NCBI GenBank assembly: GCA_024998565.1
Contig: JACOEM010000012.1
Coordinates: forward strand, 1 to 45,402
Source: Nitrospira sp.
GTDB taxonomy: Bacteria; Nitrospirota; Nitrospiria; Nitrospirales; Nitrospiraceae
DNA length: 45,402 bases
Direction of reading: 5' to 3'
Part shown: piece after piece, positions 4,684 to 25,199 of the stretch
How positions within the stretch are numbered: position 1 is the stretch's first letter
Layout: each line of letters begins with the position of its first letter
The notes under the pieces: model-generated
Told to the model about the DNA's origin: nothing
What the model saw: the letters and a program-made list of their open reading frames with translations, nothing else
Database searches by the model: none
Program-made: the position numbers and the translations under genes

Positions 4684-4688
4684 AGATC

Positions 4689-5837: not shown

Positions 5838-5851
5838 GGGGGGATCTCCTT

Positions 5852-7603
5852 CTAGTTGCCCGGTTTCTGCCGTGTGGCCGTCGTGAGGGTGGTCTCATCG
5901 GAGCGGTGCGGCTGCGACGCCGTATCGGATGAGCTGTTCCTGTCAAGGGAGAGCGTGAACCAGAAGGTCGTGCCTTGTCCGGGTGTGCTGGTGAGGCCGA
6001 GTCGTCCACCCATCATGCCGACCAGTTGCTTCACGATGGCGAGCCCGAGTCCGGTTCCGCCGTATTTTCTCGTCATCGATCCGTCCGCCTGCGAGAAGGA
6101 ATCGAAAATCTTTTCCTGAGCATGCAGCGGAATGCCGATGCCCGTATCGGTTACCTCAATGCGGACCTCTCTCGGATCACCGTCGTCCGGGCGCACGGAG
6201 ACCGCCACATTTCCCCTCTCGGTGAATTTGAGGGCGTTGCCGACCAGGTTGGTCAGAATCTGGCGGAGCCGGTGCGGATCGCCGTGGACCATGTCGGGAA
6301 TGTCCGGTGCAATGGTGACGCTCAGCGCCAGTCCCTTTTTTTGAGCCTGCTCGTGATAGAGCCCGATGGTTTCGGTGAGTAGCTGGCGGAGACCGAAGGG
6401 GATGTATTCCAAGACCAGGCGGCCGGCTTCGATCTTGGAGAAATCCAGAATGTCATTGATGATGTGCAACAGATTGGTGCCCGAATTGTGCACGGTGTCG
6501 GCGTATCGGCGTTGTTTGTCGTTCAGCGGGGTCGTCAGGAGGAGTTCGGTCATCCCGAGGACGCCGTTCATGGGGGTTCGAATTTCATGGCTCATGTTGG
6601 CCAGGAATTGGGACTTGGCCAGGCTGGCAGTCTCGGCGGCCTCCTTCGCGCGACGGAGGCGTTCTTCCTGCTGCTTTCGCTCGGAAATGTCCTGCACGAA
6701 GATGGTGAACTGCTGCGTCCCACCGACGGCCAGACAGCTCATGGCGATTTCCACGGGAAAACTTCTCCCCTGAGAAGTGTGGCCCAGCATTTCACTGCGC
6801 CGGTTGAGAATGGCTCCGGGGACTAACCCCGTGTACGGTGTAAGGGGGGCGGATCCGGTTGCGGGGGCTGAGGCGGATACGTAGGTGGTCAGGGGCTTTC
6901 CGATCGCCTCGGTTCGCGGGACGTCAAACATCAACTCAGCCTGGGTGTTCCATCCGTTGATGGTCCCCGTGGCATCCGTCGTGATGACGGCGTCGAGGGC
7001 GGTTTCGATGATCATGCGAGTTCTGGCCTCGCTTTCCCGGACCTCGTCTTGTGCGAGTTCATTGACCCGCCAGAAGTAGAGCAGAGCCGCACATTGGGCG
7101 AGGATGAAACCGCCATGGATCAAGGCCCAGGTCCAGGGGTGTGTTTGCCCGCCCGTATGGCCGTACACCATGTCGGGCATGAGCGTGCCCACCACTCCGT
7201 GATCGAGGATGATAAATTGGAGCCCGACGAGAAACGGAAGCCAATCCTGGTACAACACAATCACAGACATCATCACGAAGAAATGAAAGTGCAGTTCGGT
7301 TTGGCCCCCAGCGAGGTGAACGAGGAGGGCCGAGGCGGTCATCAGTCCGCAGGTGGCAATGGCAGACTGGAGGCGACGGCAGACAACCGATAGCCGTGCG
7401 GCGACGGCGATACCTGCGAGCAGCGCTCCCCCTCCGAGATAGAGGCTGGGACTTGCTCCCATGTAGGCACCGAACATCGGCACTCCCGGCACGTGGAGCC
7501 AGAGGATCGAAAGAATGCCCCGGTGACGGGAGTTCCAGGCCGGTTCGGCCAGAGCCTCTCCCTTCGGCAGGCCTGCCAGAAGATCCATAAACAAAGAGCC
7601 CAT
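5852..7603 (-). CDS. Membrane-bound sensor histidine kinase with PAS domain
   Basis: The protein has 583 residues. The first ~185 contain about five to six hydrophobic helices with an HFHFF motif near residue 112, a multi-helix membrane sensor region of a type seen in kinases and chemoreceptors; I cannot name a defined family. A PAS domain follows (about 195-315), then HisKA with His near 338 ([10 protein letters not shown]) and HATPase with DTGIGIP near 487 and GTGLGLAI. There is no receiver domain, so its partner must be elsewhere. The receiver domains of the two downstream kinases are the obvious candidates. It is the first gene of the operon running toward position 1. No good Shine-Dalgarno precedes ATG 7603 or the in-frame ATG at 7588, so the start is uncertain by five codons. 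Confidence 0.9.
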   Translation of the reverse strand: MGSLFMDLLAGLPKGEALAEPAWNSRHRGILSILWLHVPGVPMFGAYMGASPSLYLGGGALLAGIAVAARLSVVCRRLQSAIATCGLMTASALLVHLAGGQTELHFHFFVMMSVIVLYQDWLPFLVGLQFIILDHGVVGTLMPDMVYGHTGGQTHPWTWALIHGGFILAQCAALLYFWRVNELAQDEVRESEARTRMIIETALDAVITTDATGTINGWNTQAELMFDVPRTEAIGKPLTTYVSASAPATGSAPLTPYTGLVPGAILNRRSEMLGHTSQGRSFPVEIAMSCLAVGGTQQFTIFVQDISERKQQEERLRRAKEAAETASLAKSQFLANMSHEIRTPMNGVLGMTELLLTTPLNDKQRRYADTVHNSGTNLLHIINDILDFSKIEAGRLVLEYIPFGLRQLLTETIGLYHEQAQKKGLALSVTIAPDIPDMVHGDPHRLRQILTNLVGNALKFTERGNVAVSVRPDDGDPREVRIEVTDTGIGIPLHAQEKIFDSFSQADGSMTRKYGGTGLGLAIVKQLVGMMGGRLGLTSTPGQGTTFWFTLSLDRNSSSDTASQPHRSDETTLTTATRQKPGN

Positions 7604-10811: not shown

Positions 10812-11702
10812 ATGAGCCGAGAGCCGCGGCGACTCAAAGACGTATTGGCCCAGGGACAATTTGCCGTGACGGTGGAGTATAACCCGCCGAAGGGCACGAA
10901 CCTGACCCATGTGGTGGAAAGTGCCAAGGCGCTCGTCGGACGCGTGCATGGGGTGAACGTCACCGACAACACGGCCGCGATCGTGCGTGCCGGGTCCTTG
11001 CCGGTCTGCCGTGTGTTGTATGAGTTGGGGCATGACCCGGTGATGCAGCTGACCTGTCGGGACCGTAATCGGATCGCGATGCAATCCGATCTCATGGGGG
11101 CGCACATTCTGGGCATCCGGAACATCCTCTGTCTGACCGGAGACTATCCCACCGTAGGCGACCATAAAGAAGCCAAGCCGGTGTACGACCTGGATTCTGT
11201 TCAGGTCATGCAGCTGGTCACGGGATTGAATAACGGGAAGGACTATGCGGGCAACAAGCTCGACGGGTCCACCGCTTTTACGATCGGCGGGGCCGTGACT
11301 CCCGAAGCCGATCCGCTCGGCCCGATGTTGGTCAAGTTCGAGGTCAAAGTGCGGGCGGGCGCGGAGTTCTTTCAAACCCAGGCGATTTATCAGCCGGAGC
11401 AGTTCAAGAAATTCATGGAGGCGGTGCGTCCCTTCAAGGTCAAGGTGCTGGCCGGAATTCTGTTGCTCCGTAGCGCGAAGATGGCAGAATTCATGAACGC
11501 CAACATTCCCGGCGTCTGTGTGCCGCAGGACATGATCGACGAAATGCGCGCGGCGGGGGACAAGCGGGCCCTCGATGCCGGTGTTGAGATTGCCGTGCGC
11601 ACCATCAAAGCCGTGCGGCCGTACTGCGACGGAGTGCACATCATGGCGATCAAGTCGACGGAGCGGCTGCCGGAAATTCTTACGAAAGCAGAGCTCGGGT
11701 GA
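10812..11702 (+). CDS. metF: 5,10-methylenetetrahydrofolate reductase, catalytic subunit
   Basis: This 296-residue TIM-barrel protein belongs to the MTHFR superfamily. It reduces methylene-THF to methyl-THF with FAD. Visible support includes VTVEYNPPKG near the N-terminus with the catalytic Glu, the HGVNVTDN segment, the LTCRDRNRIAMQSDLMG motif and GIRNILCLTGD. FFQTQAIY is present toward the C-terminal half. It follows folD and overlaps panB by one base. It has no C-terminal cysteine-rich extension; a separate small gene at 24951-25199 resembles exactly such an extension. The physiological reductant (NADH, ferredoxin or other) cannot be read from sequence. The family call is firm. Confidence 0.93.
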   Translation: MSREPRRLKDVLAQGQFAVTVEYNPPKGTNLTHVVESAKALVGRVHGVNVTDNTAAIVRAGSLPVCRVLYELGHDPVMQLTCRDRNRIAMQSDLMGAHILGIRNILCLTGDYPTVGDHKEAKPVYDLDSVQVMQLVTGLNNGKDYAGNKLDGSTAFTIGGAVTPEADPLGPMLVKFEVKVRAGAEFFQTQAIYQPEQFKKFMEAVRPFKVKVLAGILLLRSAKMAEFMNANIPGVCVPQDMIDEMRAAGDKRALDAGVEIAVRTIKAVRPYCDGVHIMAIKSTERLPEILTKAELG

Positions 11703-12632: not shown

Positions 12633-13172
12633 TCAGGGGGCCTTGTTCACTGATGGCCCGTTGCCACAGTGCTCCAATCGAATACGCACGGCTGGCCGGC
12701 TGGTGTCCCCCATCCACATTGTGACGTCATCGGCGAATGTGACGGTATCAAGCCCCATGTAGGAGGCGGGACTGTTCTGCAGGCGCAGGAGCCCGCTATG
12801 GGCAAGCTTGCGCACGGCTGCCTCATTGCCGAGCGCGCGTTTGAGATGGGCGGCGGCGAGTTGAATGAGGGCTTGGAAGTAGTTGCCCGCCGTCGTTCTG
12901 CGTCCGCACGCGTGCCACAACCCCTCCAACACTTCGTGCGATTCCCACCAGTACCCGAAGTTATAGAGATCGACCGCATACAAATAGTCTTCTGAATTCG
13001 ACCATTGGTGCGGTTCAAACGGGCGCGGGCGTGGCTCCGGCTCTGCGAAGGAATGCCCCAGTGGATCGCGGCGTGGATGTGGAGTCAGGCCCGGGAGGAA
13101 TCGGTAGGTCGGCAGCGCCCTGCTATTGTAGCGGGGCCAATCGACCGTGAGCGGGTGCTCATTTGTCTCCAC
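12633..13172 (-). CDS. DUF309 family protein
   Basis: The protein is 179 residues from a GTG at 13172. This start has AGGAG a few bases upstream and overlaps the ApaH gene end by 14 bp; longer versions of the frame would run through that gene. The core YWWESHEVLEGLWHACG (about 70-90) and the following NYFQALIQLAAAHLKR helix are diagnostic of DUF309, an all-helical family of unknown function. The N-terminal ~50 residues are Pro/Arg-rich and look disordered. It is the last gene of the minus-strand operon with two hybrid kinases and the cytochrome module. No function is proposed. Confidence 0.8.
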   Translation of the reverse strand: METNEHPLTVDWPRYNSRALPTYRFLPGLTPHPRRDPLGHSFAEPEPRPRPFEPHQWSNSEDYLYAVDLYNFGYWWESHEVLEGLWHACGRRTTAGNYFQALIQLAAAHLKRALGNEAAVRKLAHSGLLRLQNSPASYMGLDTVTFADDVTMWMGDTSRPAVRIRLEHCGNGPSVNKAP

Positions 13173-13977
13173 GTGTCTCCTCGCAACGCACTTGGAAGAC
13201 CTTCCGGTCCTCCAGTCGTACGGCGGTGAGTTGCCGCCCATAGACGCAGCCGCTGTCCAGGGCACACAGATTCGGTGTGAGATGCAGGCCCATTGCCGCC
13301 CAATGCCCGAACACAATTGTGGCGGTCGCACTTCGTCGGTTCGGGACATCGAACCAGGGGCGAAATCCCTGGGGTGTGAGTTTCGGCGGGCCGGAGAAGG
13401 TCGATTCCATGATACTGTCGTCGGAGCAGGTTCTGATTCGGGTCAACACTTTGATGATGGTGGCAAGGCGCACCGGGCCTTTCAGATCGGAGTGCCATTG
13501 CAGAGAGCCGCTGGGGTGAAGGGCGCGAAGCGTTGCGCTGGATTGTTCTCCCCGCAGTGCCGTTTCTGCCTCCATGGCGAATTGCTGGGCCTCCTCGATC
13601 GTCCAGTGCGGCAAGAGCCCCGCATGGACCAGTACATAGGAGCCCTCCCGATAGAGCAACGGCTGCTGTCTGAGCCAGGCCGTGAGTTCGCCGCAGTCCT
13701 GGGCATCGAGGATTTGGGTCAACGTATCGTCGCGCCGAAGGGGTGTCAGGCCGGTCGCCACGGCAAGCAGGAACAGATCGTGATTGCCGAGCACGGTGAC
13801 CGCAGCCGGCCCGAGGTCCCGGATATAGCGAAGGACACCAAGCGAGTCCGGCCCGCGATTGACGAGATCCCCCACGAACCAGAGACGGTCCTGTGCCGGA
13901 TTGAATCCGACCGTCTTGGTGAGCTGTCTGAGCGAGGCAAAGCAGCCTTGTACATCGCCGATTGCATAGGTAGCCAT
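13159..13977 (-). CDS. apaH: Symmetrical bis(5'-nucleosyl)-tetraphosphatase, ApaH type
   Basis: ApaH hydrolyses Ap4A to two ADP and is a PPP-family metallophosphatase that can also remove NpN caps from RNA. The protein is 272 residues from ATG 13977, starting MATYAIGDVQGC as family members do (E. coli ApaH is about 280). The metal-site motifs GDVQGC, GDLVNRGPDS and GNHD are all visible, as is a later VHAGLLPHW motif with a metal-ligand His. Two upstream in-frame starts (ATG 14010, TTG 14016) are possible; none has a strong Shine-Dalgarno. It lies 66 bp after a giant hybrid kinase gene and overlaps the DUF309 gene. Confidence 0.92.
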   Translation of the reverse strand: MATYAIGDVQGCFASLRQLTKTVGFNPAQDRLWFVGDLVNRGPDSLGVLRYIRDLGPAAVTVLGNHDLFLLAVATGLTPLRRDDTLTQILDAQDCGELTAWLRQQPLLYREGSYVLVHAGLLPHWTIEEAQQFAMEAETALRGEQSSATLRALHPSGSLQWHSDLKGPVRLATIIKVLTRIRTCSDDSIMESTFSGPPKLTPQGFRPWFDVPNRRSATATIVFGHWAAMGLHLTPNLCALDSGCVYGRQLTAVRLEDRKVFQVRCEETRGDK

Positions 13978-14043
13978 GAGTGCGTGCAGACTAGCGCGGA
14001 CGACGTTCATTCGCAAGTCGCGAGAGCCGGTCGAGCGGTTGGT

Positions 14044-17000
14044 TTATCGGGCGGAGCGCTGTTGTAGTTCCGAGGTGATCGCGGCGCAGGCGAACTGATG
14101 GGCTTCGATGAGTTGCGACAGACGGTGCGCAGCCTCGTCGTTCCGGGCAAGCCGTCCAAGGGTCTCCAATTCTTTGCAATGGGCGGCGGTGGCCAGGACG
14201 CCGAGCTGGGCGCTGCTGGACTTCAAGCGGTGGGCGGCCTGAGAAAGAGCGACCGAATCCTGTGACTGCACGGCGGAGCGAATCTGCTCCACGAGCTGGC
14301 GGGAATCATCCAAGTAGGTTGCCAGCACGCGGGCTAAGATGTCGGGCCGTCCCGGGCGTTGGAGCGACAGAATCGCATCCCAGGCAGTCTTGTCGATGGT
14401 TGTCGGAACCGGTGCTTCCTCTGTGGCGGCCGGTTCGTCGGCGTCGGCGGTATGGGTGGAGGAGGCCTGGTCGGTCTCGCTCGCCTTGGCTGGCTGTGGC
14501 GTCAACCATTGCATGAGCAAGGCGTGTAGCTGCGAGACGGTAAACGGTTTGGTGAGATAGTCGTCCATCCCGGCGGCCAGGCAACGGGCGCGATCGCCTT
14601 CCATGGCATTGGCGGTCAACGCGATGATGGGCACATGGCGACGGTCGGTCGCCGTCGCTTCCTGCCGGCGAATGGCTGCTGTGGCAGTGAAACCATCCAT
14701 CTCGGGCATCTGGCAGTCCATGAGAATGAGGTCGAACCGGCCGGTTGTGGCTGCCTCGACGGCGGCCCGTCCGTTGGGTGCGATCGTGATGCGACATCCC
14801 AGCATGTCCAGCATGAAGGATGCCACATCCTGGTTGACGGGGTTATCCTCGGCCAGGAGGATGTGGGCGTCGACGTGCGGACGCGGGGTCGGCGCGGACT
14901 CCGGGCTGTGGGGCACTGGTCCGGCGGACCCTCCGAGCACTCGCGTCAGGCAGTCTTTGAGCAGTGACTGTCGCACCGGCTTGCGCAGGAAGCTGTGAAA
15001 GAGCCGGTGGGTTACGTCGCTGTCGTCCGAGAGACGCTCGACTGAGCTGAGTGCGATCAGGGGGAGATTCTGATAAGCCGTCTGCTGTTTGATGGAACGC
15101 GCGAGATCGACGCCGTCCCGCCCCGGCATTCGAAGGTCGAGGATGGCCATGTCGATTCGATGCTGCGTGTGCCGGAAGTGCTCCAATTGGAGGAGCGCAT
15201 CGTCGGCAGACTCCGCGGTGAAGACCGTGGCTCCCCAACTCCGCAGGTGGGTGGCCAGAATCTCGAGGTTTGTGCGTGCGTCATCGACGATCAGGATCTG
15301 CCGTCCGGCGAGATGGCGTTCGGCAAGCGGAGGGTATGCGGCGTGAGCACTTCCACGTGTGACGGTGAATGTGAACGAGAACGTCGTGCCCTGACCGGGC
15401 GCACTCACCAGGCCGACTTCACCACCCATCAGCCGTACCAGTTGTTTGACGATCGCCAGGCCGAGCCCGGTGCCGCCGAATCGCCGGGTGGTAGAGCCGT
15501 CGGCCTGGGTGAACGCCGTGAACAGTTGGGCCTGAGCGGCGTCAGGAATGCCGATGCCGGTATCGCGCACCTGGCAAGCGAGTGTGAGGGTATCCGCCTG
15601 TTGCTCTGCCAGCGCAAACGCGACCGTCACCTCCCCCTGTGTCGTGAACTTGATGGCGTTGCCGATCAGGTTGAGCAGAATTTGGCGTAGACGGACAGGG
15701 TCTCCCACGAGACTATCCGGCACCTCGGCCGGGATGAAGTAGGTCAACTCCAGTTTCTTGTTGCCCGCGGCCCCGGCAAACAATTCGACTGCCTCCTCAA
15801 CGACCTGTCTCAGGCCGAACTCCACCTGTTCGAGTTCAAGCTTTCCCGCTTCGATCTTGGAGAAATCCAGAATGTCATTGATGACCTCGAGGAGGGCCAC
15901 GCCTGAGCGGCGGACGGTTTCCAACAGCGACTGTTGTTTGGCCGAGAGACTGGTGCTCAGCAGCAGTTCGGTCATTCCGAGGACGCCGTTCAGCGGTGTG
16001 CGGATTTCATGACTCATGTTGGCCAGGAACCGAGACTTTGCCACATTGGCTGCCTCGGCCGCTTCTTTGGCCGAAACCAACTCCTGTGCCGTCAGCTTCA
16101 GCGGCGTGATATCGGTGGCGATGCCGAGGTAGCCGGTGATCCGGCCATCCGCCTCCCGCAGTGCCGTGACATTCAACAGTACCGTCTTCCTGGTGCCATC
16201 CTTACACACGTACGCCCACTCGTGCTCGTTGGGGAGATTCCGCCGGCATTTTTCGACGAACACGTCGAAGCCCGGTTCGATCGTGGTCCCCAATTCCGCG
16301 GAAAACTGGCGCGCTCGCGCGACCACTTCGTCCAAGTCGTGGAAGATGCCCGGGGTCTGTTTGCCGACTAATTCATCGGCGCTGTATCCCAGCAGGGCTT
16401 CCGCCGCCGGATTGAAGACCTGGATCATGCCGTCGGGCTTGCACGAGATGATCGCATGACCGGCGTTGTCCAGCATGGCCTTCTGGAAGGTCGAATAGGC
16501 CTGCAATGCGGTTTCGCTGCGGCGTTGTTCGGTAATGTCGCGGACGGTCGCCTGCAGTCCGGTGGTCCCTTTCAATGTGATGCGGGTCAACTGTACGCTC
16601 GCCAGGAAGGCGGGGCCGCCGACTCGTTTGTGTAACCACTCGAAGCTGTGAGAGCCTTCTTGAAGGGCCATCCCAATCATCTTCGGCGCCTTGACCATGG
16701 ATTCTTCGCCGTCAGGCTGATGCTCGGGAGAGACGTCCCATGGTCCGAGTGACGTGAAATGCTCGGCGTCCCGCGCCCCGAAGAGTTGAACGGTCGCCGG
16801 GTTGCAGGCCGTGAAATTCCAATTCGGGGACGACAAAATCATGATGGCATCGCGCGAGGACTCGAACAGCTCGCGATACTTCTCTTCGCTCTCGTGCAGG
16901 ATCGATTCGTGTGCGGTCCGGTCGGTGATATCTTCGGCGATGCCGAGCAGGAAGCGGGGGCGTCCCTGCTCATCCATGACAGGCAGTTTCTTGGTGCGCA

Positions 17001-18345
17001 GCAGTCGTACGCCCCGGTGCTGTGTGTGAATTTCTTCTGAGGCGACCTCGATGAGGCGGCCGCTCCGGAGCGCTTCGCGATCATGACGTGTGAAGCGGTC
17101 GGCCTCTTCTTTGCGGAAAAAATCATGGCCGGTCCGGCCGAGGATGAGGTCGCGACTGAATCCTGTGAGCTCCTCCGCCGCCCGATTCCAGCGTGTGAAC
17201 CGGAGCTGTTCGGCTTCTTTCACATAGACCATGATGGGGAGGTTTTCGATCACCGAGTCGAGAAATTGTTCGGCACGTTTCGTTTCGGTTTCAGCCTTAT
17301 GCCGGTCCGCTGCCTCTACGGCGAGCGAAACGGTGTTCGCCACTGAGGCCGCAAACTGCTGTTCCTCCGTCGTCCAGACTCTGGGCGTTCCGATGTGTTC
17401 ACAGTGCAGCGCCCCAACGAGAATGCCCTCGGCGCGGATAGGCACGTTCAGCATGGAGGTGATCCCCAGCGGCAGCAGATGGTGTGCTGCAAATTCCACC
17501 GTTCGCGGGTCCGCCTGCGCCTCGTTCGCGACGATCATCTCTCCCGCCTCGAGCGATGAGAAGTACTGTGGATAAAGGGCGGCGGGTTGCTCGATGCCGT
17601 GTGAGTGTTGATCGCCCGGTTGGTCATAGAGGTCCGCGCACCGGAGAACCGCATGGTCCGGCGCATAAAACCAGATGCTGACCCGCGCGACGCGGAGGCT
17701 CTGTGTCGTGACCCGGGTGATGAGGTGGAAGGCCTCGGTCAATTGTCCACGGTAGATCGCCTGATTGCTCGCCAACCCGACCATGCCTGTCTGTAAGCGG
17801 CGGAGTAACGCGGAGTTTTCGATCTGATGTGGCTCCGCCTCCTTCTGGGCTGTGAGATCCCGGAACGTCAGGACGGCTCCGCGTACGACGCCATCATGCG
17901 ACATCGGAGTGATCGTCAGAGAAATCGGCGTCAACTGGCCATCTTGTCTGAGCAGGAGACCATTGTCGGTCCGGTAGGGGAGAGCGGATTGCAGCGGAGG
18001 AATGGAGCGGTCGGTTACGAAGCACTCGTGGCGGAATTCCTCCGGGCCGGGAGCAAGCAGTTGATACGCGGGGCGTCCTTTCAGGTCATGGGCGGGGGCG
18101 CCGATTAAGATCTCGGCCTGGGGATTCAGTCTGAGGATGTGCCATTGCGCATCGACGATGCACAGGCCTTCGTCGAGCGAGCAGAGGACGGCGTCGAGTG
18201 CGCGGCCTTCGTCGAGGGACAGAGGCGTGTTGGAAGGCGGAATCTCCCGGTGTTCGGTTTGCGAGTCGCCCGAGTCGGTCGCGAGTTGCCCGCTTGTGCG
18301 CCGCACGCTCTGCCTGAGTTGTTGCAGAAGCCGACGCATCGTCAC
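14044..18345 (-). CDS. Giant cytosolic hybrid histidine kinase (PAS-GAF-PAS3-HisKA-HATPase-REC-REC-Hpt)
   Basis: The protein is about 1433 residues with no membrane segment. The order is a PAS domain (about 55-170), GAF (about 185-345), three more PAS domains (about 365-760), HisKA with His near 777, HATPase with DTGIGIP near 928 and GTGLGLAI, a first receiver with Asp near 1068 (LDLRMPGRDG), a second receiver with Asp near 1208 (MDCQMPEMDG), and Hpt with His near 1371 (AHRLKSSSAQLG). The start is taken as GTG 18345 with GGAAGGA upstream; ATG 18339 is nearly equivalent. A longer frame from GTG 18405 would overlap the upstream kinase gene by 38 bp. It follows that kinase by 22 nt. Tandem receivers suggest two branches of phosphotransfer. 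Confidence 0.92.
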   Translation of the reverse strand: MTMRRLLQQLRQSVRRTSGQLATDSGDSQTEHREIPPSNTPLSLDEGRALDAVLCSLDEGLCIVDAQWHILRLNPQAEILIGAPAHDLKGRPAYQLLAPGPEEFRHECFVTDRSIPPLQSALPYRTDNGLLLRQDGQLTPISLTITPMSHDGVVRGAVLTFRDLTAQKEAEPHQIENSALLRRLQTGMVGLASNQAIYRGQLTEAFHLITRVTTQSLRVARVSIWFYAPDHAVLRCADLYDQPGDQHSHGIEQPAALYPQYFSSLEAGEMIVANEAQADPRTVEFAAHHLLPLGITSMLNVPIRAEGILVGALHCEHIGTPRVWTTEEQQFAASVANTVSLAVEAADRHKAETETKRAEQFLDSVIENLPIMVYVKEAEQLRFTRWNRAAEELTGFSRDLILGRTGHDFFRKEEADRFTRHDREALRSGRLIEVASEEIHTQHRGVRLLRTKKLPVMDEQGRPRFLLGIAEDITDRTAHESILHESEEKYRELFESSRDAIMILSSPNWNFTACNPATVQLFGARDAEHFTSLGPWDVSPEHQPDGEESMVKAPKMIGMALQEGSHSFEWLHKRVGGPAFLASVQLTRITLKGTTGLQATVRDITEQRRSETALQAYSTFQKAMLDNAGHAIISCKPDGMIQVFNPAAEALLGYSADELVGKQTPGIFHDLDEVVARARQFSAELGTTIEPGFDVFVEKCRRNLPNEHEWAYVCKDGTRKTVLLNVTALREADGRITGYLGIATDITPLKLTAQELVSAKEAAEAANVAKSRFLANMSHEIRTPLNGVLGMTELLLSTSLSAKQQSLLETVRRSGVALLEVINDILDFSKIEAGKLELEQVEFGLRQVVEEAVELFAGAAGNKKLELTYFIPAEVPDSLVGDPVRLRQILLNLIGNAIKFTTQGEVTVAFALAEQQADTLTLACQVRDTGIGIPDAAQAQLFTAFTQADGSTTRRFGGTGLGLAIVKQLVRLMGGEVGLVSAPGQGTTFSFTFTVTRGSAHAAYPPLAERHLAGRQILIVDDARTNLEILATHLRSWGATVFTAESADDALLQLEHFRHTQHRIDMAILDLRMPGRDGVDLARSIKQQTAYQNLPLIALSSVERLSDDSDVTHRLFHSFLRKPVRQSLLKDCLTRVLGGSAGPVPHSPESAPTPRPHVDAHILLAEDNPVNQDVASFMLDMLGCRITIAPNGRAAVEAATTGRFDLILMDCQMPEMDGFTATAAIRRQEATATDRRHVPIIALTANAMEGDRARCLAAGMDDYLTKPFTVSQLHALLMQWLTPQPAKASETDQASSTHTADADEPAATEEAPVPTTIDKTAWDAILSLQRPGRPDILARVLATYLDDSRQLVEQIRSAVQSQDSVALSQAAHRLKSSSAQLGVLATAAHCKELETLGRLARNDEAAHRLSQLIEAHQFACAAITSELQQRSAR

Positions 18346-18367
18346 GACTGGTCCTTCCGATGGGGCA

Positions 18368-21295
18368 TCATGCCGCCGACCGTCCTGCCCGGTTGAGTTC
18401 TTCACGCATCAGGGCGCATACCGCTCGGTGTTCAGCAATGAGGCGCCCGCAGAGATCGGGAAGATTATCCGGAGTGCCTGCCCGGCATGTCGCTTCGATT
18501 TGCGCGTACAGGTCGGCCAGTCGCGGTGCGCCGAGCTGGGCCGTTGAAGATTTCATCATATGGGCGATGGTCTTTACAGCCTGGATGTCGGCGCCGGCCA
18601 TGGCCTGCTGGAGCTGACTAAGCTGGGCGTCGGCATGGGGCACATACAATGTGAGGGCTTTGTGGAGAAGATCCGGCTGGCCGGGTCGTTGGCGAGCACG
18701 GATCGCCTGCCACGCGTTGAGGTCCACATGGTCGTCGCTTGGCGCGGCGGCTTCGGCCGGTGGTGCCGTCTGTGGGGGCGGTGCCTGCGGTGTCGACCGC
18801 AGAAGGGGTTCGGTTGTCCGTGAGGGCCCCTTGATGGAAAGCCGGCGGTGCAGCACTTCCTTGAGCGTGGTCAATGTAAACGGCTTGGACAGATAATCAT
18901 CCATGCCTGCCGCGAGGCACCGCTCGCGGTCTCCTTCCAATGCATTTGCGGTGAGGGCCACGATGGTCGTGTGCCGGGGTTGCGCGGCCTGCGTTTCCTG
19001 TTCACGAATCAGGGCGGTGGCGGTCAGGCCGTCCATTTCCGGCATGTGGCAATCCATCAGCACCAGGTCGAATGGCCGATTCGTGAGCGCCTCGACCGCC
19101 TCTCTGCCGTTTTCAACCATGGTGGTGGTGCACCCGAGTAGCTCCAGCATCGTAAATGCCACTTCGCGGTTGACGGGGTTGTCTTCCGCGAGCAGGACGT
19201 GGGCGGCGAATGGGACGGCCTGATCGTCGGGCTGGGTCGGCGCGGGTGCCTCGGTCGCCGGGACGTGGTGGCACAGGCGTGTGAGGCAATCTTTCAACAA
19301 CGACTGGTGGACCGGCTTTCTCAGCCAGGCACTGAAGAGCGACGGGTGCCGCTGGGATTCGTCTGTGACCTGGTCGACCGAACTGAGCGCGACGAGCCCC
19401 ATGTCGGAACGCCGCGCATCTTCTCTAATGGTCCGAGCCAGCGTAATGCCGTCCATGTCCGGCATGTGAATATCCAGCACGGCCAGATGGACTCTGCGCC
19501 GGGCCGTACATTGGCGATCGAGCAACGCCAGCGCTTCCAGGCCGGAGGTGGCGGACAGCACTGCGGCGCCCCAGGCGGTCAAGTGCGTTTCAAGGATTTG
19601 CCGGTTCGTCGGGTTGTCATCGACGATTAAAATGGAACATCCGTCTAACGGCGTTTCGGTTGCTCCCGAGGCGGCAGTGCGTTGGGCGGCGCATTGCAGT
19701 TCGACGGTGAACCAGAACGTGGATCCCTGGCCGGACACGCTGTCGACGCCCACATCGCCTCCCATCAGGAGGGCGAGTTGTTTCACAATCGCGAGACCAA
19801 GCCCTGTGCCGCCGAATTTCCGTGTGGTGGAGTTATCGGCCTGGGAGAACGCCTGAAACAATCGTGCCTGTGCCGCTTCAGGAATGCCGACTCCCGTATC
19901 GCGGATGCGGAATTTGAGCGTCAGGTTCGTCGGGGTATGGGTGAGGAGTTCGAGTGTGACGGCCACGTCGCCGGTGTGGGTGAACTTGATGGCGTTGCCG
20001 ACGAGATTCAGAAGGATCTGCCGGAGCCGAACAGGATCTCCAATCACGGTGTCCGGGATGTCCGGCGGCACGAAACAGGTGAGTTCGAGGTGTTTGCGAC
20101 CGGCGGTTTCTGCAAACAGATCCACTGCATCTTCAACCGTCTGTCTGAGGCCGAACTCGATCCGTTCCAACTTCAGTTTGCCGGACTCGATTTTCGAGAA
20201 ATCAAGGATTTCATTGATGATGTCCAGGAGCCCGGTGCCGGACCGGTGCAGGGTTTCCGTCAATGAACGCTGCTTGGGTGTGAGTGCTGTTGTGAGGAGG
20301 AGTTCCGTCATCCCCAGCACCCCGTTCATCGGGGTGCGGATTTCGTGGCTCATATTCGCGAGGAATTGCGATTTGGCACGATTCGCCGCCTCGGCCGCCT
20401 CCTTGGCCTGATGCAATTCGGTGGTTCGTTCCCGTACAGCTTGCTCCAGTGAGTCGGTAAAGGATTGGAGCCGCTGTGCCTGCGTGGTGAGCAGAGTGGT
20501 GGTCGTCTCAACCAGATCGACGACCTGCTCCAGTTCGCCCTTGCAGGACGGCGAGGCAGGGGAGTTGTCGTTGTCGGACGTCTCATCGCCGGACGGCGCC
20601 TGTTCCGAGACGCAATGGAGGGTATGCAGGGTCTCCTGCAGCTTTTCGGCAGTTTCTCGAAACAGGCCGGACATGCGCCTGATCCCGAGTTGAGCGACCG
20701 AAATCGTGGCCCCCATGAATAGGACTGACAGGAGGAAGAGGCGGCGCGCTTCGCGGGTGAGTTCCTCCTGCATCGCCGCGAGGGAAAACTCGATCCGCAC
20801 CCACGCGGCGATGTCCTGTTCGTTCAGGAGCGGCGTGGCGACCAGGAGTGTGGGCACGCCGCCCATAGTTTGGCCATGGGAAATGGTCTCGGCGTTGGTT
20901 TCGTGTGCCTGCGCGAGGGTCTCATCCGTCAGCTGCTGTCCGATTTGCTGAGGATTCGTCGCTGCGACGATCATGTTGTCGGGATCGATGATGAGGATAC
21001 TCAGAATGTCCGAATCCTGGGCATAGCGACCTAACGCTTCTTGGATGCGAAAGAGATTGTCCAACACGGCGGCTGCGCCCACCATTGAAAACGTGCGGCT
21101 GACCGCCAGCGCCCGGGCTTGCGTGGCCTGTTCGATGGACTGACGAATTTCAACTAACCGGAAGGTCGCGAAACCGGCCATGCCGATCGTAATCAGGACC
21201 GCCATTCCGATGCTAAGACGAAGGCGGAGATTCCCGTGCCAGATGCGCCAGGGGCGACAAATCCAGTCGGTCCTATTTTTTATTGGCATCGACAT
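18368..21295 (-). CDS. Membrane-anchored hybrid histidine kinase with periplasmic sensor and REC-REC-Hpt tail
   Basis: The protein has 975 residues. A membrane helix (about 28-48), a periplasmic region of about 140 residues and a second helix (about 185-205) form a CHASE-like or dCache-like sensor topology. The region has a [17 protein letters not shown] segment typical of periplasmic PAS-like folds. A coiled linker leads to HisKA with His near 316, HATPase with DTGVGIP near 467, receiver 1 with Asp near 607 ([10 protein letters not shown]), receiver 2 with Asp near 748 ([10 protein letters not shown]) and Hpt with His near 912 ([12 protein letters not shown]). Its start overlaps the cupredoxin gene end by 23 bp. 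It is therefore translationally linked to envelope redox proteins, which suggests it senses their redox state or substrate. Confidence 0.92.
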
Positions 21296-22001
21296 GAGCG
21301 GGGTATTCGATCGTGATGGTGGCTTCGCCGCGAGCTGGAATCGTGATTCGTTGTTGGAACGTTCCCAATGTGTCGTGCCAGACTGTTACGAGGTGCTCCC
21401 CCGGGGTGAGTTGGGCGATCTGAAACGCGCCGGTGTCGTCTGTGACACTAAAAAAGGGGTGGGTGAAGGCGAGCACAGTGGCGCGCATAAATTTGTGTGC
21501 ATCGCACTGGACCATATAGATGCCGGGTTGCTTGAGCGGTTTTTCGACCGGTCGGCTCGCGGGAATCATGGCGACATTCACAAAGGTTCGCGGTCCCATG
21601 GAAATGTGGGTGTTGTGCATGACGGGGTCATCATTGCGGATCTCCAGTTGTTGGCCGACCTCGCCCGCGACAATGCGAGGGGAGAAGGCACAATGGGTAT
21701 TGGTGAGCACAAGCGGGCGGCGTGGCAAATCGGCCGTGGGGACTGTGTCACCGTCGATGCTGACGACTGCGGCTTGAAGGCCTCGCGTCTTCGCATTCAC
21801 CGTCACGGGGTGGATGGCGGTGGTGGTGCCGCAGAACGACGAATCGCGTGTGACCGTGATCACCTGCCCTGATTCGATCGGGCCGGCATAGGTGATTCGG
21901 CCCATCAGTGTGCTTGTGGGAGATTCCGCTCTCAGGAGGGCGCTCGGGCCGAGCATTACGCAGAGCGTCACGGTCAGCAGTATCGGTTTCATGTACCGCA
22001 T
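21273..22001 (-). CDS. Secreted cupredoxin-like protein with carboxypeptidase regulatory-like domain
   Basis: The protein is 242 residues from ATG 22001, which has AGGA upstream; an ATG at 21992 is also possible. A signal peptide (about 1-25, ending LLRAES) directs export. A beta-rich domain has a plausible type 1 copper set: His129 (HNTH), Cys166, His169 and Met172 in QCDAHKFM. The C-x2-H-x2-M spacing is tighter than in plastocyanin. The last ~60 residues ([18 protein letters not shown] onward) look like a carboxypeptidase-regulatory beta sandwich. It follows the dihaem cytochrome gene, so a role as periplasmic electron carrier or copper-binding partner is likely. Copper binding is an inference. 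A methylamine-utilisation-like annotation is a common alternative for such proteins. Confidence 0.75.
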
Positions 22002-22067
22002 CTCCATTTCCTCGTTGGGCGTCCGATTCGCAGGTTGTATGAAATGTGGGTGCTTCATGGTGCCGAA

Positions 22068-22841
22068 TTATCGCCCCGGCTGACCTGATAGGGACTGGAG
22101 GTACCACACCAGATCCCATGCAGCTTCTTCCTGTCCGGAAAATTCATCGGCATAGGCAGGCATCGGGGTGCCGTCCAGGCCGGTCATGATGCTTCGATAG
22201 AGATCGTGAGGCGTCGCCCCGTTTTTGAATGAGGATGGGTCGGTGAGGTCCGTGGCGGTCATGGGAAGGTTGTTGGCGTCCCGCAGGTGCCCGGCCTTCG
22301 ATTCCGGCCCATCACCTGCACCATTGTCCCCGTGGCAGGTCCGACACTCGTACTTGGCGTACAGAGCCCGGCCGTTTGTGATTCCATTCCCGGAGGGAAG
22401 GGGCGGCGGAGAGGGGAGCGCGATCGGCGTCGGCTGTTCCTGCTCGAACGCCGGATTCAACGATTTGAGATAGGCGATGACCTGCCATCGTTCCTGCTCG
22501 TTCAAGGATCGGTACGACGGCATGAAGCCGGGAATGCCCTGTGTGATGGTTCTGAAGAGATCCTGATCCGTTGGCAGTTCACCCGAGGGGGTGCTTCGCA
22601 GTTTGTAGCTCTCTGCCGTGAAGTCGCGAGGACGAGGGGCTGCGTACCGACCGATGGACCAGCCGGATGGCCCGTCCCCTTTCCCTTCGCTGCCATGGCA
22701 CCAGGCGCAGGCCCGATCATAGATTCGATGCCCCTCGGTAATGGTATCCCGCCCGTCCTTCGGCCGTAGCGCTTGCGCGGTCGTGGCGCAGAAGCCTGTC
22801 ACGATGAGGATCGCAAGATATCGGAGTACACGGCGATGCAT
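22068..22841 (-). CDS. Periplasmic dihaem cytochrome c
   Basis: The protein is 257 residues from ATG 22841, preceded by GGAAGAA. A signal peptide ends near AQA (about 24). Two class I cytochrome c domains follow. The first has CAWCH at 45-49 with Met107 in GFMPSY as likely axial ligand. The second has CRTCH at 166-170 with Met227 in TPMPAY. A Pro-rich linker (about 133-152) separates them. Both domains carry the GDGP motif after the haem. It would carry electrons in the periplasm between the outer-membrane cytochrome-porin encoded immediately upstream (13-nt gap) and the inner membrane chain. The partner assignment is inferred from gene order. Confidence 0.93.
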   Translation of the reverse strand: MHRRVLRYLAILIVTGFCATTAQALRPKDGRDTITEGHRIYDRACAWCHGSEGKGDGPSGWSIGRYAAPRPRDFTAESYKLRSTPSGELPTDQDLFRTITQGIPGFMPSYRSLNEQERWQVIAYLKSLNPAFEQEQPTPIALPSPPPLPSGNGITNGRALYAKYECRTCHGDNGAGDGPESKAGHLRDANNLPMTATDLTDPSSFKNGATPHDLYRSIMTGLDGTPMPAYADEFSGQEEAAWDLVWYLQSLSGQPGR

Positions 22842-22854
22842 GATTCTTCCCGGT

Positions 22855-24234
22855 CTAGTAAGAGATATCGATTCCCACAAAAGCTGCATGTCTCAGATTG
22901 CGAGCCGCTGCATTGCCCTCTTCTGCACGACGCAAATTGAGGTCGTGTCGGGCGTAAACGGCCACATTCGAGCGAAGGTAGTGCTTGATCTGCATGCCGG
23001 CGAACGTTTGTGATGTACGCTGGGCCAGATCTCCTCCGGCATCCATGTTGTCGTACCGTAGCGAGAGCAGGGTTCGGTTCGTGACGTAGGCATCCAGCGC
23101 GACGGTCACTCCGCTGGCGGTGGTGTCGAAATTGCTCAAGGCCGCTGTCGGGATATGTGTGATTCTATCCAGTGTATACATCCCATGGAGATCCAGCATT
23201 TTGTAGCGCAGGTGGGCAGCCGCACCGTAGCGATTCCAATTCGCATCGACGTTGCGTGTGCCGTCGAATACGGTGGCGTTGCTGTTCCCGAGATAGGCAA
23301 ATCCCGAGAGGCTTGCTGAAAAGTTGGCTGAGCGGGCGTAATCAAGGCGGATGGCGCCGTAAAAGTCTTTGCCTTTGTTGGAATCTCCAAAGCCTTCGTT
23401 CGATCCATTCAGCACGCCGACCTGATACATGAACCAGTCGCCGAACGGGCGCCCGCGGACTTCGACGCCGGTTTCCGCCACTGCGTTGTAGAGCGAGGGG
23501 GCATAGGGGGAAATGACGGCCCCTGAGCGATCGCGCAAACCGTAGAATTTGGCGGCTGCGGCAAGCGGGAAGAGCCCTGCCCGCTGGACCGCGTCGCTGG
23601 AGGAATTCGTGCTCTCACCGATAAATTCGAGTTGTTGCCGGAGAGTGGAAAAGGAGAATACGGCCGAAGGGTCGAGTTTTCCGATGCGGATATTGGCAAT
23701 ATTCTCACCTGCAACATTGTTGAACGTAATGAAGGCTCGCTCGATCCCTGTTGCCCCTTCTTCGAGATTGGATTCCAGCTCGGCAAAAAACCCGATATTT
23801 TTGCTCAGGGTGCCGGCAGTGAATAGGCTGAACACTTCCGGGAATCCGAGCTCGCTTTTGTTTTGGACCGTGCCGGATTCTGCCCCCGGCGGATTCTGCT
23901 GCTTGAAGTTGTGGGCGCGCAGGACGTTTCCACGGAGCCGGACACCTGTGTAGTTCGCAAAATCATCCAGGCTGAGGTCGCCGAGATTCTTCTTTCCTGT
24001 GATGCCTCCATCTTCGGTTCCCGGAAGCTGATAGCCGTTTTCAAGGAACCGCTCACCGAATGTATTGAGCTGTGGTGGAGCCGTGTGGCACGTCGTGCAG
24101 TTCAACGCATATTTCCGCGCAAAGGCGGGGATAGCTTCTGCGGTTTGAACCGACATGTCGTAGGTTCCCGATATCACAACAAAGAGCCCTACCACCGCCT
24201 GAACGATGGTTGCTCCCATGGAGTGCGTGCGCAA
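22855..24234 (-). CDS. Fused monohaem cytochrome c - outer membrane porin (Cyc2-like architecture)
   Basis: The protein is about 459 residues. A signal peptide (about 1-34) precedes IPAFARKYALNCTTCH with haem-binding C46, C49 and H50, followed by PPQLNTFGERFLENGY. This motif set is shared with fused cytochrome-porins including the Cyc2 iron oxidases. The remaining ~400 residues alternate polar and hydrophobic residues, are rich in Gly and aromatics, and end in Tyr, as in outer-membrane barrels. The start is uncertain: TTG 24234 has AAGGA upstream and gives a charged n-region, ATG 24219 is shorter, and ATG 24300 adds an atypical 22-residue N-terminus rich in rare codons. It heads a run of minus-strand genes. 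Iron oxidation is not proven; a generic haem porin is the alternative. Confidence 0.8.
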   Translation of the reverse strand: MRTHSMGATIVQAVVGLFVVISGTYDMSVQTAEAIPAFARKYALNCTTCHTAPPQLNTFGERFLENGYQLPGTEDGGITGKKNLGDLSLDDFANYTGVRLRGNVLRAHNFKQQNPPGAESGTVQNKSELGFPEVFSLFTAGTLSKNIGFFAELESNLEEGATGIERAFITFNNVAGENIANIRIGKLDPSAVFSFSTLRQQLEFIGESTNSSSDAVQRAGLFPLAAAAKFYGLRDRSGAVISPYAPSLYNAVAETGVEVRGRPFGDWFMYQVGVLNGSNEGFGDSNKGKDFYGAIRLDYARSANFSASLSGFAYLGNSNATVFDGTRNVDANWNRYGAAAHLRYKMLDLHGMYTLDRITHIPTAALSNFDTTASGVTVALDAYVTNRTLLSLRYDNMDAGGDLAQRTSQTFAGMQIKHYLRSNVAVYARHDLNLRRAEEGNAAARNLRHAAFVGIDISY

Positions 24235-24498
24235 GACGGTGTCCTTTTCCTGCTCGATAGCAACCCTGTTGCGACGCACAGGTAGCCTGTGCCGACCCAT
24301 GCCGCACCCTGACTGTCTGATGTCGGTGGATTTTGAGTGGGACTTTAGGCGTTTTCAGTGAGAAACATTGGCAGTGCGCAGCACGTAATGAGCTGCCGCA
24401 GAGTTAGTGGGATAGTTGCGATGGGAGTGCCGGTGATGAGGTGAAGCGAGGCAAGTAGCCAGTGGAAGGCGCGCAGAGGAGGCTGTTGAGCAGGCAAT

Positions 24499-24927
24499 TT
24501 ATGCCGGATAGTTTGCTTCGATCACGCTTCGCAGTCCCCCACGAGCGGCAAATTCACCGGTTACCGTCGCCTTGGTTGGCCGACAGGCTCGTACGATGTC
24601 CTGAAGGATGCGATTGACCGCATTCTCGTAGAAAATTCCTACATTTCTGTAGGCATGAATGTACATTTTGAGCGCCTTAAGCTCGAGGCAATACTTGTCT
24701 GGCCTGTAGCGAAGGGTGATAGTTCCAAAGTCCGGCAGGTTGGTCTTAGGACAAATGGCTGTGTACTCTGGGATGACGATTGTAATTTCGTATCCCTTGT
24801 ATTGATTGGGGAATGTCTCAATGTCGGGCAGGGGAGTAGCGATCCCGCTCTTGGCGTGCCGTTCGTTGTATCCCAGCCTTGTGGTTGCTCCCGCGGGCTT
24901 CTGTTTTTTATTACCTTTCGCCGTCAC
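24499..24927 (-). CDS. queF: NADPH-dependent 7-cyano-7-deazaguanine reductase
   Basis: QueF reduces preQ0 to preQ1 for queuosine in tRNA. From GTG 24927 it has 142 residues, typical of the short (type I) form. The catalytic Cys59 sits in AICPKTNLPDFG with Asp66. FPNQYKGYEI and the family segment ending in YRNVGIFYE with its Glu are also present. A GTG at 24969 would extend it by 14 residues into the upstream gene; the shorter start has a G-rich Shine-Dalgarno-like stretch. The upstream gene encodes a reductase-like zinc domain protein, so the two probably share a transcript. No other queuosine gene is in the window. Confidence 0.9.
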   Translation of the reverse strand: MTAKGNKKQKPAGATTRLGYNERHAKSGIATPLPDIETFPNQYKGYEITIVIPEYTAICPKTNLPDFGTITLRYRPDKYCLELKALKMYIHAYRNVGIFYENAVNRILQDIVRACRPTKATVTGEFAARGGLRSVIEANYPA

Positions 24928-24950
24928 CCGATCACCCCACCTTGTTGTTG

Positions 24951-25199
24951 TCAGACTTGCTTCATCCACTCCAGTTGGCCCAGTTCGTTCAATTTATTGT
25001 AGAGCGTGACCCACGGACAGGTCATTTCCGGATAGACCTCGCAGAATCCACCTTTGCGGACGCCTCCGCATGGACCATGGCTCATGAATTTTGGGCACTC
25101 GGCCTTGAGTGAGCCATCCGGGATTGGTGGTCGCTTGTGCACCCCTCCCGCATGTTGCTCGCCATGTTCTTCTCCCGGGACCAGCACTCGTATAGGCAT
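24951..25199 (-). CDS. Stand-alone MTHFR C-terminal-domain-like protein (MetV-like)
   Basis: This 82-residue protein carries CPKFMSHGPCGG (Cys35, Cys44), GFCEVYPEMTC (Cys53, Cys61) and a following PWVTLYNKL. The pattern matches the cysteine-rich C-terminal domain of methylenetetrahydrofolate reductases (MTHFR_C family), which in acetogens is part of MetV, the partner of MetF. Here the domain is free-standing and lies about 13 kb from metF (10812-11702), whose product lacks it. It probably binds zinc or an Fe-S cluster through the four cysteines and may form a complex with MetF. A promoter -10 ends six bases before the ATG and there is no Shine-Dalgarno, so the mRNA may be leaderless. Confidence 0.8.
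   Translation of the reverse strand: MPIRVLVPGEEHGEQHAGGVHKRPPIPDGSLKAECPKFMSHGPCGGVRKGGFCEVYPEMTCPWVTLYNKLNELGQLEWMKQV

Follow-up and report, generated by a model that had tools for sequence, protein, structure and literature searches.

What kind of system is encoded by a run of seven minus-strand genes of Nitrospira sp., in which genes for electron transfer at the cell envelope lead directly into genes for signal transduction? The run lies in the window analyzed here, the whole stretch of 45,402 bases at the start of contig C12 (genome size 4.13 Mb), and encodes a cytochrome-porin, a dihaem cytochrome c, a cupredoxin, a membrane-bound and a soluble hybrid kinase, ApaH and a DUF309 protein. 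An initial annotation had regarded all seven as one operon with one function. Our comparison of genomes indicates that the functional unit is formed by the first four of them (porin, cytochrome, cupredoxin and membrane kinase, positions 18368-24300):

22855..24300, minus strand: Cyc2-family outer-membrane cytochrome-porin, start uncertain (24300, 24234 or 24219)
22068..22889, minus strand: dihaem cytochrome c with two CXXCH, likely start 22841, Pfam Cytochrome_CBB3 and Cytochrom_C with two stretches each
21273..22058, minus strand: periplasmic cupredoxin with a C-terminal CarboxypepD_reg-like domain, predicted copper ligands H148, C185, H188 and M191
18368..21295, minus strand: membrane hybrid histidine kinase with a Cache-type periplasmic sensor, HisKA, HATPase, two receivers (REC, REC) and Hpt

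The best reading of these four genes is an electron-uptake conduit of the Cyc2 type with a dedicated Cache sensor for its cupredoxin; to this reading we give an even chance. The conduit and its linkage to the sensor are well supported; the role of the cupredoxin as the input of the sensor is what we infer. The chain probably carries electrons in from outside the cell, and the genes suggest that the cell may sense the outside electron source through the chain itself.

The gene arrangement described in the initial annotation is accurate. All seven open reading frames (ORFs) are present where it had placed them, the gaps of 13, 66, −23, 22, 66 and −14 nt are exact with its start codons, the membrane kinase starts inside the cupredoxin gene with an overlap of 23 nt, and the labels of the genes are borne out by domain scans (Pfam, NCBIfam), that of the cupredoxin by structure instead. 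If the longest ORFs are regarded, the 23-nt overlap between cupredoxin and sensor is found for seven distinct sensors including that of the window.

To delimit the unit, conserved synteny was checked in 29 same-genus genomes. Twelve of them gave matches to the cupredoxin family (CUP) with E values of 3.9e-51 or below, and each of these 12 loci includes porin, cytochrome, cupredoxin and sensor; cupredoxin and porin are split into two ORFs in G089, and in G052 the porin is cut by the contig end. ApaH occurs in 28 of the 29 genomes compared to 12 for the four-gene module. At the ApaH site, examined in 15 of the 17 genomes without the module, ApaH always adjoins PanB or MTHFR (15 of 15), DUF309 is called directly after ApaH in eight genomes, and the soluble kinase is kept in seven. 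At two loci (L181, L185) QueF stands directly beside ApaH without module or kinases. Four module-less genomes carry deletion scars, from which cytochrome, cupredoxin and most of the membrane kinase are gone, and in all four the soluble kinase follows the scar. L197 retains porin residues 4-119 and, behind them, the tail of the membrane kinase; L198 has a porin that is frameshifted but nearly whole, with the last 37 kinase residues behind it; L196 keeps an N-terminal part of the porin, and L199 the kinase tail only. Profile searches gave no cytochrome, cupredoxin or sensor at any of the four scar loci. A fifth genome (L182) has a porin-like fragment, found by profile only.

The first four genes are thus lost as a block while the soluble kinase, ApaH and DUF309 persist, which is our reason to regard the four as the unit. 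A seven-gene operon serving one function is rejected, since the last three genes persist where the first four are missing. Nitrospira defluvii FP929003.1 (L073) has the block as well, as do further genera of the same taxonomic family, and the four genes recur together at unrelated sites across genera. The proposed tie between the redox genes and their own sensors therefore holds for the membrane kinase, as the block is conserved across genera, and is not supported for the soluble kinase, which is kept without the block. A chance neighborhood of unrelated genes applies to the last three genes of the run. Among the first four it is largely ruled out by their recurrence at unrelated sites across genera, and their loss as a block speaks against it as well, so that chance is a highly improbable account of the locus.

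Judged by published criteria, the porin of the window is a new member of the known Cyc2 family. Keffer et al. 2021 describe a signature said to be unique to Cyc2, namely the motif AXPXFAR[Q/K][T/Y] preceding a single CXXCH, with PXL four residues further on, together with a length of more than 365 aa and a 16-stranded porin domain (PMC8406198). The window porin carries AIPAFARKYALNCTTCHTAPPQL in agreement with this signature: the motif AIPAFARKY is followed by ALN and then by CTTCH, TAP and PQL, the CXXCH (C68-C71-H72, ORF numbering) is the only one, and the length is 481 aa. The distance from the motif to the first Cys is three residues compared to five stated in the paper (PMC8406198). A looser pattern is matched by 40 distinct sequences in the loci searched, the window's included, and the L043/L079 porins (FSRKY) as well as the chemoreceptor-linked porins of L110 and L163 (FAKKY) are one residue off. 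The AlphaFold2 (AF2) model of the porin contains approximately 16 long strands by manual count, with a mean predicted local distance difference test score (pLDDT) of 61.7, and agrees in this respect with the published strand number. Foldseek ranked OmpF-type porins best (E about 1e-10); OprP and OprO, the published Cyc2 templates, are not among the best 50 matches listed. Neither Pfam nor NCBIfam gives a match or a name for the porin.

Cyc2 homologues were already reported in Nitrospirales (PMC9040806), homologues of Leptospirillum Cyc572 were noted in Nitrospira (PMC10654088), and Cyc2 genes were reported for the “sulfide mineral” clade of Nitrospirae (PMC7329443). With the fused cytochrome-porins Cyc2/Cyt572 of iron oxidisers (PMC8406198, PMC10654088, PMC9040806) the window porin shares the single N-terminal CXXCH, the Cyc2 signature and the barrel of approximately 16 strands. 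Unlike these systems, it shares its gene block with an amicyanin-type cupredoxin and a kinase that bears a Cache sensor. The Cyc2 proteins tested so far oxidise Fe(II) (PMC8406198), and in the cathode bacterium Tenderia Cyc2 expression responds to potential (PMC5371394). A second porin with the Cyc2 signature (506 aa, L066 7773-10384) is located on contig C6 of the genome under study, where it adjoins a CarboxypepD_reg protein related to the cupredoxin; no sensor or dihaem cytochrome was called near this pair, and L068 has a similar one.

The cupredoxin gene has a single family match, CarboxypepD_reg, which lies below the Pfam cut-off, and its assignment arises from structure. The AF2 model has a mean pLDDT of 87.1, amicyanin is its best match in Foldseek, and the structural match to plastocyanin and amicyanin reaches Z 11-12 across residues 112-199. 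The predicted ligands H148, C185, H188 and M191 are invariant in all 31 aligned cupredoxins, as are C76 and C123. The C-x2-H-x2-M spacing is that of amicyanin. According to the model, the protein has the fold and the His, Cys, His and Met ligands of a type-1 copper cupredoxin, and it presumably contains copper. At L055 13014-14459 and L096 9182-10627, two stretches of one contig, dihaem cytochrome and cupredoxin are fused in an ORF of 481 aa.

In the membrane kinase, HisKA, HATPase, two receivers and Hpt are recognized by Pfam, and the sensor gives single-Cache matches below the Pfam cut-offs. We therefore built and searched a family profile for this periplasmic Cache-type part. The kinase scores 499.3 against the NCBIfam TorS cut-off of 676.5, for which reason we do not regard it as TorS, and 510.2 against 890 for BarA; RegB is not among the best 25 of its 152 NCBIfam matches. 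TorT/TorS-type systems are similar in that the gene of a periplasmic protein accompanies a hybrid phosphorelay kinase; here the partner is a copper protein. Haem-bound Cache domains (sCache_heme) were described in a 2026 preprint (PMC12889525) and likewise link a Cache domain to redox chemistry. Unlike these, the window kinase contains no CXXCH, the 51 CUP-linked sensors compared have no conserved Cys, and the redox center would be located in a separate protein. In a related locus (L041 3789-6749) the Hpt end of the membrane kinase resembles that of the soluble kinase (72%) and no separate soluble kinase is called, which looks like a recombination between tandem kinases.

How regularly do cupredoxin and sensor occur together? 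In 37 of the 41 named Nitrospirota loci with CUP a sensor of the same family lies within 300 nt, and in these pairs both genes are on the same strand except for L090, L093 and L094; the named loci are partly dependent, as they include shared genomes, near-copies (e.g. L083 and L084) and many of the genomes that also provided unnamed loci. The four unpaired loci (L092, L100, L113, L123) have only 816, 6, 18 and 3 nt downstream of the match. At L087 a frame break divides the sensor, and one of its halves is the nearest match; at L097 the nearest match is a Cache-only protein, followed by a sensor that is part of a kinase. Outside Nitrospirota, none of 12 CUP loci has the sensor, while one must keep in mind that L122 is without a phylum name and that L118, L121 and L124 have only 0.6-1.5 kb downstream. 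Counting L082 the figure is one of 13. This contig of a gammaproteobacterial metagenome-assembled genome carries a sensor nearly identical to that of a Nitrospira pair, and it was left out because it is probably misbinned.

Searched from the side of the sensor, 395 genomes of the phylum gave 38 places at E 3.4e-49 or better. CUP lies within 1.5 kb at 27 of the 38 (including L160 with a CUP fragment of 70 aa only and L053 on the opposite strand), which is an upper view of the pairing rate because the profile came mainly from CUP-linked sensors; two further places are second kinases in a CUP cluster. Eight places were inspected below the score gap: seven (L170-L176) are without CUP, and L052, a Cache-only protein of 239 aa recruited through CUP, is with it. 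After removal of identical sensor segments (99 to 71) and of two short ones a tree of 69 sensors was obtained, in which the 51 CUP-linked sensors spread over both main halves. The CUP label changes nine times on this tree compared to 16.1 times in shuffles (0 of 500 as low), most of the CUP-linked loci having been recruited through CUP. A stand-alone Cache protein of 237-241 aa, a distant relative of the sensor, occurs in L171 (8367-11437, contig C5 of the genome under study) and L172; it adjoins a GGDEF protein, REC-PAS-GGDEF-EAL by Pfam in L171.

Distances between the proteins point partly in the same direction. The input consisted of 42 sensors that score at least 150 bits and have CUP on their own strand at no more than 300 nt. 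The partial correlation between sensor and CUP distances given the cytochrome is 0.72 (0 of 2000 permutations, n=34), and that between sensor and cytochrome given CUP is 0.12 (114 of 2000, n=34), which is no clear correlation. In a test against the kinase core of the same polypeptide, with sensors less than 75% identical to each other (n=14), the values are 0.31 for sensor and CUP (31 of 1000) and 0.00 for sensor and kinase (477 of 1000). These sequence comparisons are suggestive of a sensor-CUP pairing, not proof of it.

A further hint arises from the output side. The sensor found beside CUP is joined to a HisKA hybrid phosphorelay in the window and to a HisKA_3 kinase in L048 (Pfam), to which L108, with a LuxR-type regulator gene beside CUP, is related. 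On hybrid kinases it is followed by a REC-PAS-GGDEF-EAL regulator in L057 and by a REC-cyclase regulator in L085, and in L110 and L163 it is part of HAMP-MCP chemoreceptors. Forms with HAMP-GGDEF-EAL exist as well, none of them adjacent to CUP (5 kb away in L123). Judging from these gene neighborhoods, the relatives keep the copper protein and the sensor while swapping the outputs. As the outputs include chemotaxis and second messengers, sensing of the surroundings, and not only regulation of the conduit genes, is suggested. The initial annotation had noticed that the operon contains no response regulator with a DNA-binding domain; an answer comes from the relatives only, in which a chemoreceptor or a regulator (LuxR-type, GGDEF-EAL or cyclase) is present. 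Cytochromes with 30 to 39 CXXCH (L083 3166-5577, L084 2761-5577, L108 5147-7438, L160 14034-16358) sit a few genes upstream of the HisKA_3-type module, with an oppositely oriented gene between.

What the cupredoxin might do for the sensor is indicated by parallel cassettes. In nine loci (L036, L045, L183, L184, L186-L189, L194) the chromosomal site of the module is occupied by relatives of three other genes, which encode a TonB-dependent receptor, an ABC_sub_bind protein of the periplasm and a hybrid kinase; Pfam identified some members and BLAST the rest. At this site L037 and L040 carry a YfiR-like protein and a CHASE8-containing hybrid kinase together with a TonB-type receptor, which is recognized by Pfam in L037 and by a weak BLAST match in L040. 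The overlap of 23 nt seen between cupredoxin and kinase in the window recurs between binding protein and kinase in L187 and L194, again judged by the longest ORFs. In this layout of outer-membrane entry, periplasmic partner and hybrid kinase, the cupredoxin takes the position that in the sister systems belongs to a periplasmic protein for ligand binding or regulation, and it is mainly for this reason that we read it as the input of the sensor. The same cassettes, with their TonB receptors beside sister kinases, could be taken as a sign of metal sensing. In this case the kinase would learn from the cupredoxin how much copper the periplasm contains, and the role of the cytochromes would be to keep the cupredoxin oxidised or a protective one. 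The copper ligands, invariant in 31 of 31 sequences, would fit such a sensor of copper or metal stress; it leaves unexplained why a Cyc2 porin and a dihaem cytochrome accompany the pair, and we consider it improbable.

For the uptake conduit with a dedicated sensor, the following course of events may be sketched. Fe(II) or a comparable reductant outside the cell would donate electrons to the haem of Cyc2, from which they would reach the dihaem cytochrome and the cupredoxin. The kinase, through its periplasmic Cache domain, would read the redox or occupancy state of the cupredoxin, much as TorS-like kinases read periplasmic co-receptors, and would feed the REC-REC-Hpt phosphorelay and through it an unlinked regulator. 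The genes present, their families and order, their conservation, their loss as a block and the exchange of outputs are seen in the sequences; we infer the direction of electron flow, the copper occupancy, the contact between cupredoxin and Cache domain, and the signal. The latter is probably the presence of an external electron donor and not only conduit expression, because relatives tie the pair to proteins of gene expression, c-di-GMP, cyclic nucleotides and chemotaxis. In a more general form, which we put forward tentatively, a donor would be detected by electron flow, through the electrons that pass via Cyc2 onto a Cache-read cupredoxin, and CUP and Cache would represent a general input cassette wired to phosphorelay, transcription, c-di-GMP, cyclic nucleotides or chemotaxis.

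The main rival is a soluble ligand for the Cache domain, which is possible. The locus would then encode an ordinary uptake conduit of the Cyc2 type together with its own regulator: the Cache domain binds the ligand, the kinase controls expression of the conduit, the cupredoxin is a mere carrier, and its adjacency to the kinase reflects a stable gene order. We regard this account as possible and somewhat doubtful. Several observations favor it or otherwise weigh against the cupredoxin as input. Cache domains usually bind small ligands. Among the 51 CUP-linked sensors the invariant residues are Gly, Leu, Gln, Asp, Ile, Pro and Trp; there is no conserved Cys or His, and the core has one mostly conserved Met (45 of 51), so that a direct metal site in the sensor is unlikely on these alignments. 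Nine of the 38 strong sensor places are without CUP, which rules out the sensor as an exclusive partner of CUP; furthermore the profile, built mainly from CUP-linked sensors, biases the top of the ranking towards them, and scoring was limited to seven candidates per genome. Dereplication at the same 75% threshold (n=18) leaves a modest distance signal, with 0.37 for sensor and CUP (1 of 1000) compared to 0.20 for sensor and cytochrome (45 of 1000). CUP distances also follow the kinase core (partial correlation 0.61, 0 of 1000, n=14), so that much of the signal is accounted for by the common descent of whole loci. The porin model itself is of middling confidence (pLDDT 61.7). Finally, porin, cytochrome and cupredoxin occur without the sensor in four gammaproteobacterial loci (L115, L116, L118, L125), L118 having only 1.4 kb downstream. 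A precedent for a conduit clustered with its regulator is given by RegB/RegA beside rus in Acidithiobacillus (PMC5506826). Pure self-regulation is at odds with the chemoreceptors (L110, L163), c-di-GMP and cyclase outputs found beside CUP, and with three loci (L091, L093, L094) that have CUP and sensor with no porin or cytochrome in the available DNA nearby.

The sensor-less loci also bear on the direction of electron flow. In L115, L116 and L125 the trio is followed by a further dihaem cytochrome (identified by BLAST and haem count in L116), a COX1-like fragment, a full-length CcoN-like COX1 and FixO (Pfam). The CcoN-like protein of L125 scores 249 against the NCBIfam ccoN cut-off of 583, and we therefore speak of a cbb3-like oxidase. 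As the trio stands there without a sensor before oxidase genes, the cupredoxin is probably a carrier in Gammaproteobacteria; it is the component common to the sensor-less trio and the CUP-sensor pair. The fragment preceding the CcoN-like gene is a protein of 188-192 aa that matches only the last third of COX1 (L115 6001-6579, L116 4367-4933, L125 12233-12799). The opposite direction would mean that the chain releases electrons to an extracellular acceptor whose availability is read by the sensor, as in the congregation of Shewanella on minerals, which needs conduit genes (Mtr/OmcA) and the Cache chemoreceptor SO_2240 for one redox-guided behavior (PMC5789149). The likeness to the window is a conduit joined with a Cache receptor; the Shewanella conduit is multihaem, no cupredoxin is described in the excerpts of that source, and the genes are unlinked, as their locus tags are far apart. 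Since the tested Cyc2 proteins oxidise Fe(II) (PMC8406198) and the cbb3-like oxidase genes point inward, release of electrons is quite improbable for the window system.

With regard to known systems, a close arrangement is that of the rus operon of Acidithiobacillus, in which Cyc2, dihaem cytochrome and cupredoxin are encoded together and the oxidase genes belong to the operon. The window resembles it in having these three and redox two-component genes in the same cluster. It is not a rus operon in this sense, as no oxidase is encoded among its seven genes (Pfam) and oxidase genes are found only in the gammaproteobacterial relatives; its cupredoxin has the amicyanin-like loop C-x2-H-x2-M. In iron-oxidising acidithiobacilli regBA lies in one cluster with the rus operon (PMC5506826). 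The window kinase differs from regBA in being a Cache hybrid whose gene overlaps the cupredoxin gene. The earlier statement that no system of this composition is described has to be narrowed: the porin agrees with the Cyc2 criteria and has known homologues in Nitrospirales (PMC9040806), and redox two-component genes cluster with rus (PMC5506826). No description of a cupredoxin paired with a Cache sensor was found among the titles, abstract openings and excerpts of the open-licence PMC literature searched, and a literature search by N. defluvii locus tags within a guessed tag range gave no match. The parts are known and the combination is undescribed.

How cells perceive redox partners that are solid or lie outside the cell has yet to be clarified. 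In the present case the gene beside that of the sensor codes for a small periplasmic cupredoxin as a candidate connector, and the link between conduit and sensor can therefore be tested with purified proteins. Nitrospira are known as nitrite oxidisers; if the proposed link is true, they would have a defined way to detect external electron donors.

The remaining three genes of the run, and the gene that marks the site upstream of the module, are the following:

14044..18405, minus strand: soluble PAS/GAF hybrid kinase (1453 aa as longest ORF; Pfam GAF, PAS, HisKA, HATPase, two receivers, Hpt), a separable neighbor
13159..14016, minus strand: ApaH, symmetrical bis(5'-nucleosyl)-tetraphosphatase, above both NCBIfam cut-offs, a resident neighbor
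12633..13172, minus strand: DUF309 protein (Pfam), a resident neighbor
24499..24969, minus strand: QueF-like gene (Pfam QueF), approximately 200 nt upstream of the module, a site marker outside the module

In one genome without the module an ORF (L180 10819-11973) joins an Hpt remnant of the soluble kinase (89%) to ApaH (88%). Scans for promoter-like and terminator-like sites stayed at chance level (4 compared to 3.8 expected, and 13 compared to 12.3 expected). The promoter-like site at 18493-18464 is the only one on the minus strand within the seven genes; if real, it would split the supposed operon at the junction of membrane kinase and soluble kinase. No Rfam match at the gathering threshold and no tRNA were found in the window. 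The nearest named record among those returned, in a search that may omit records very close to the window's genome, is Candidatus Nitrospira defluvii FP929003.1 (L073) with a cupredoxin 92% identical. A small protein of the MTHFR C-terminal family (24951-25199) and an MTHFR-like gene named by eye (10812-11702) lie on opposite sides of the module. At 2-7603 the minus strand of the window carries a second signalling cluster, consisting of a receiver-HisKA protein cut by the contig end, a kinase of 1210 aa, a FIST-domain protein and a HisKA/HATPase kinase.

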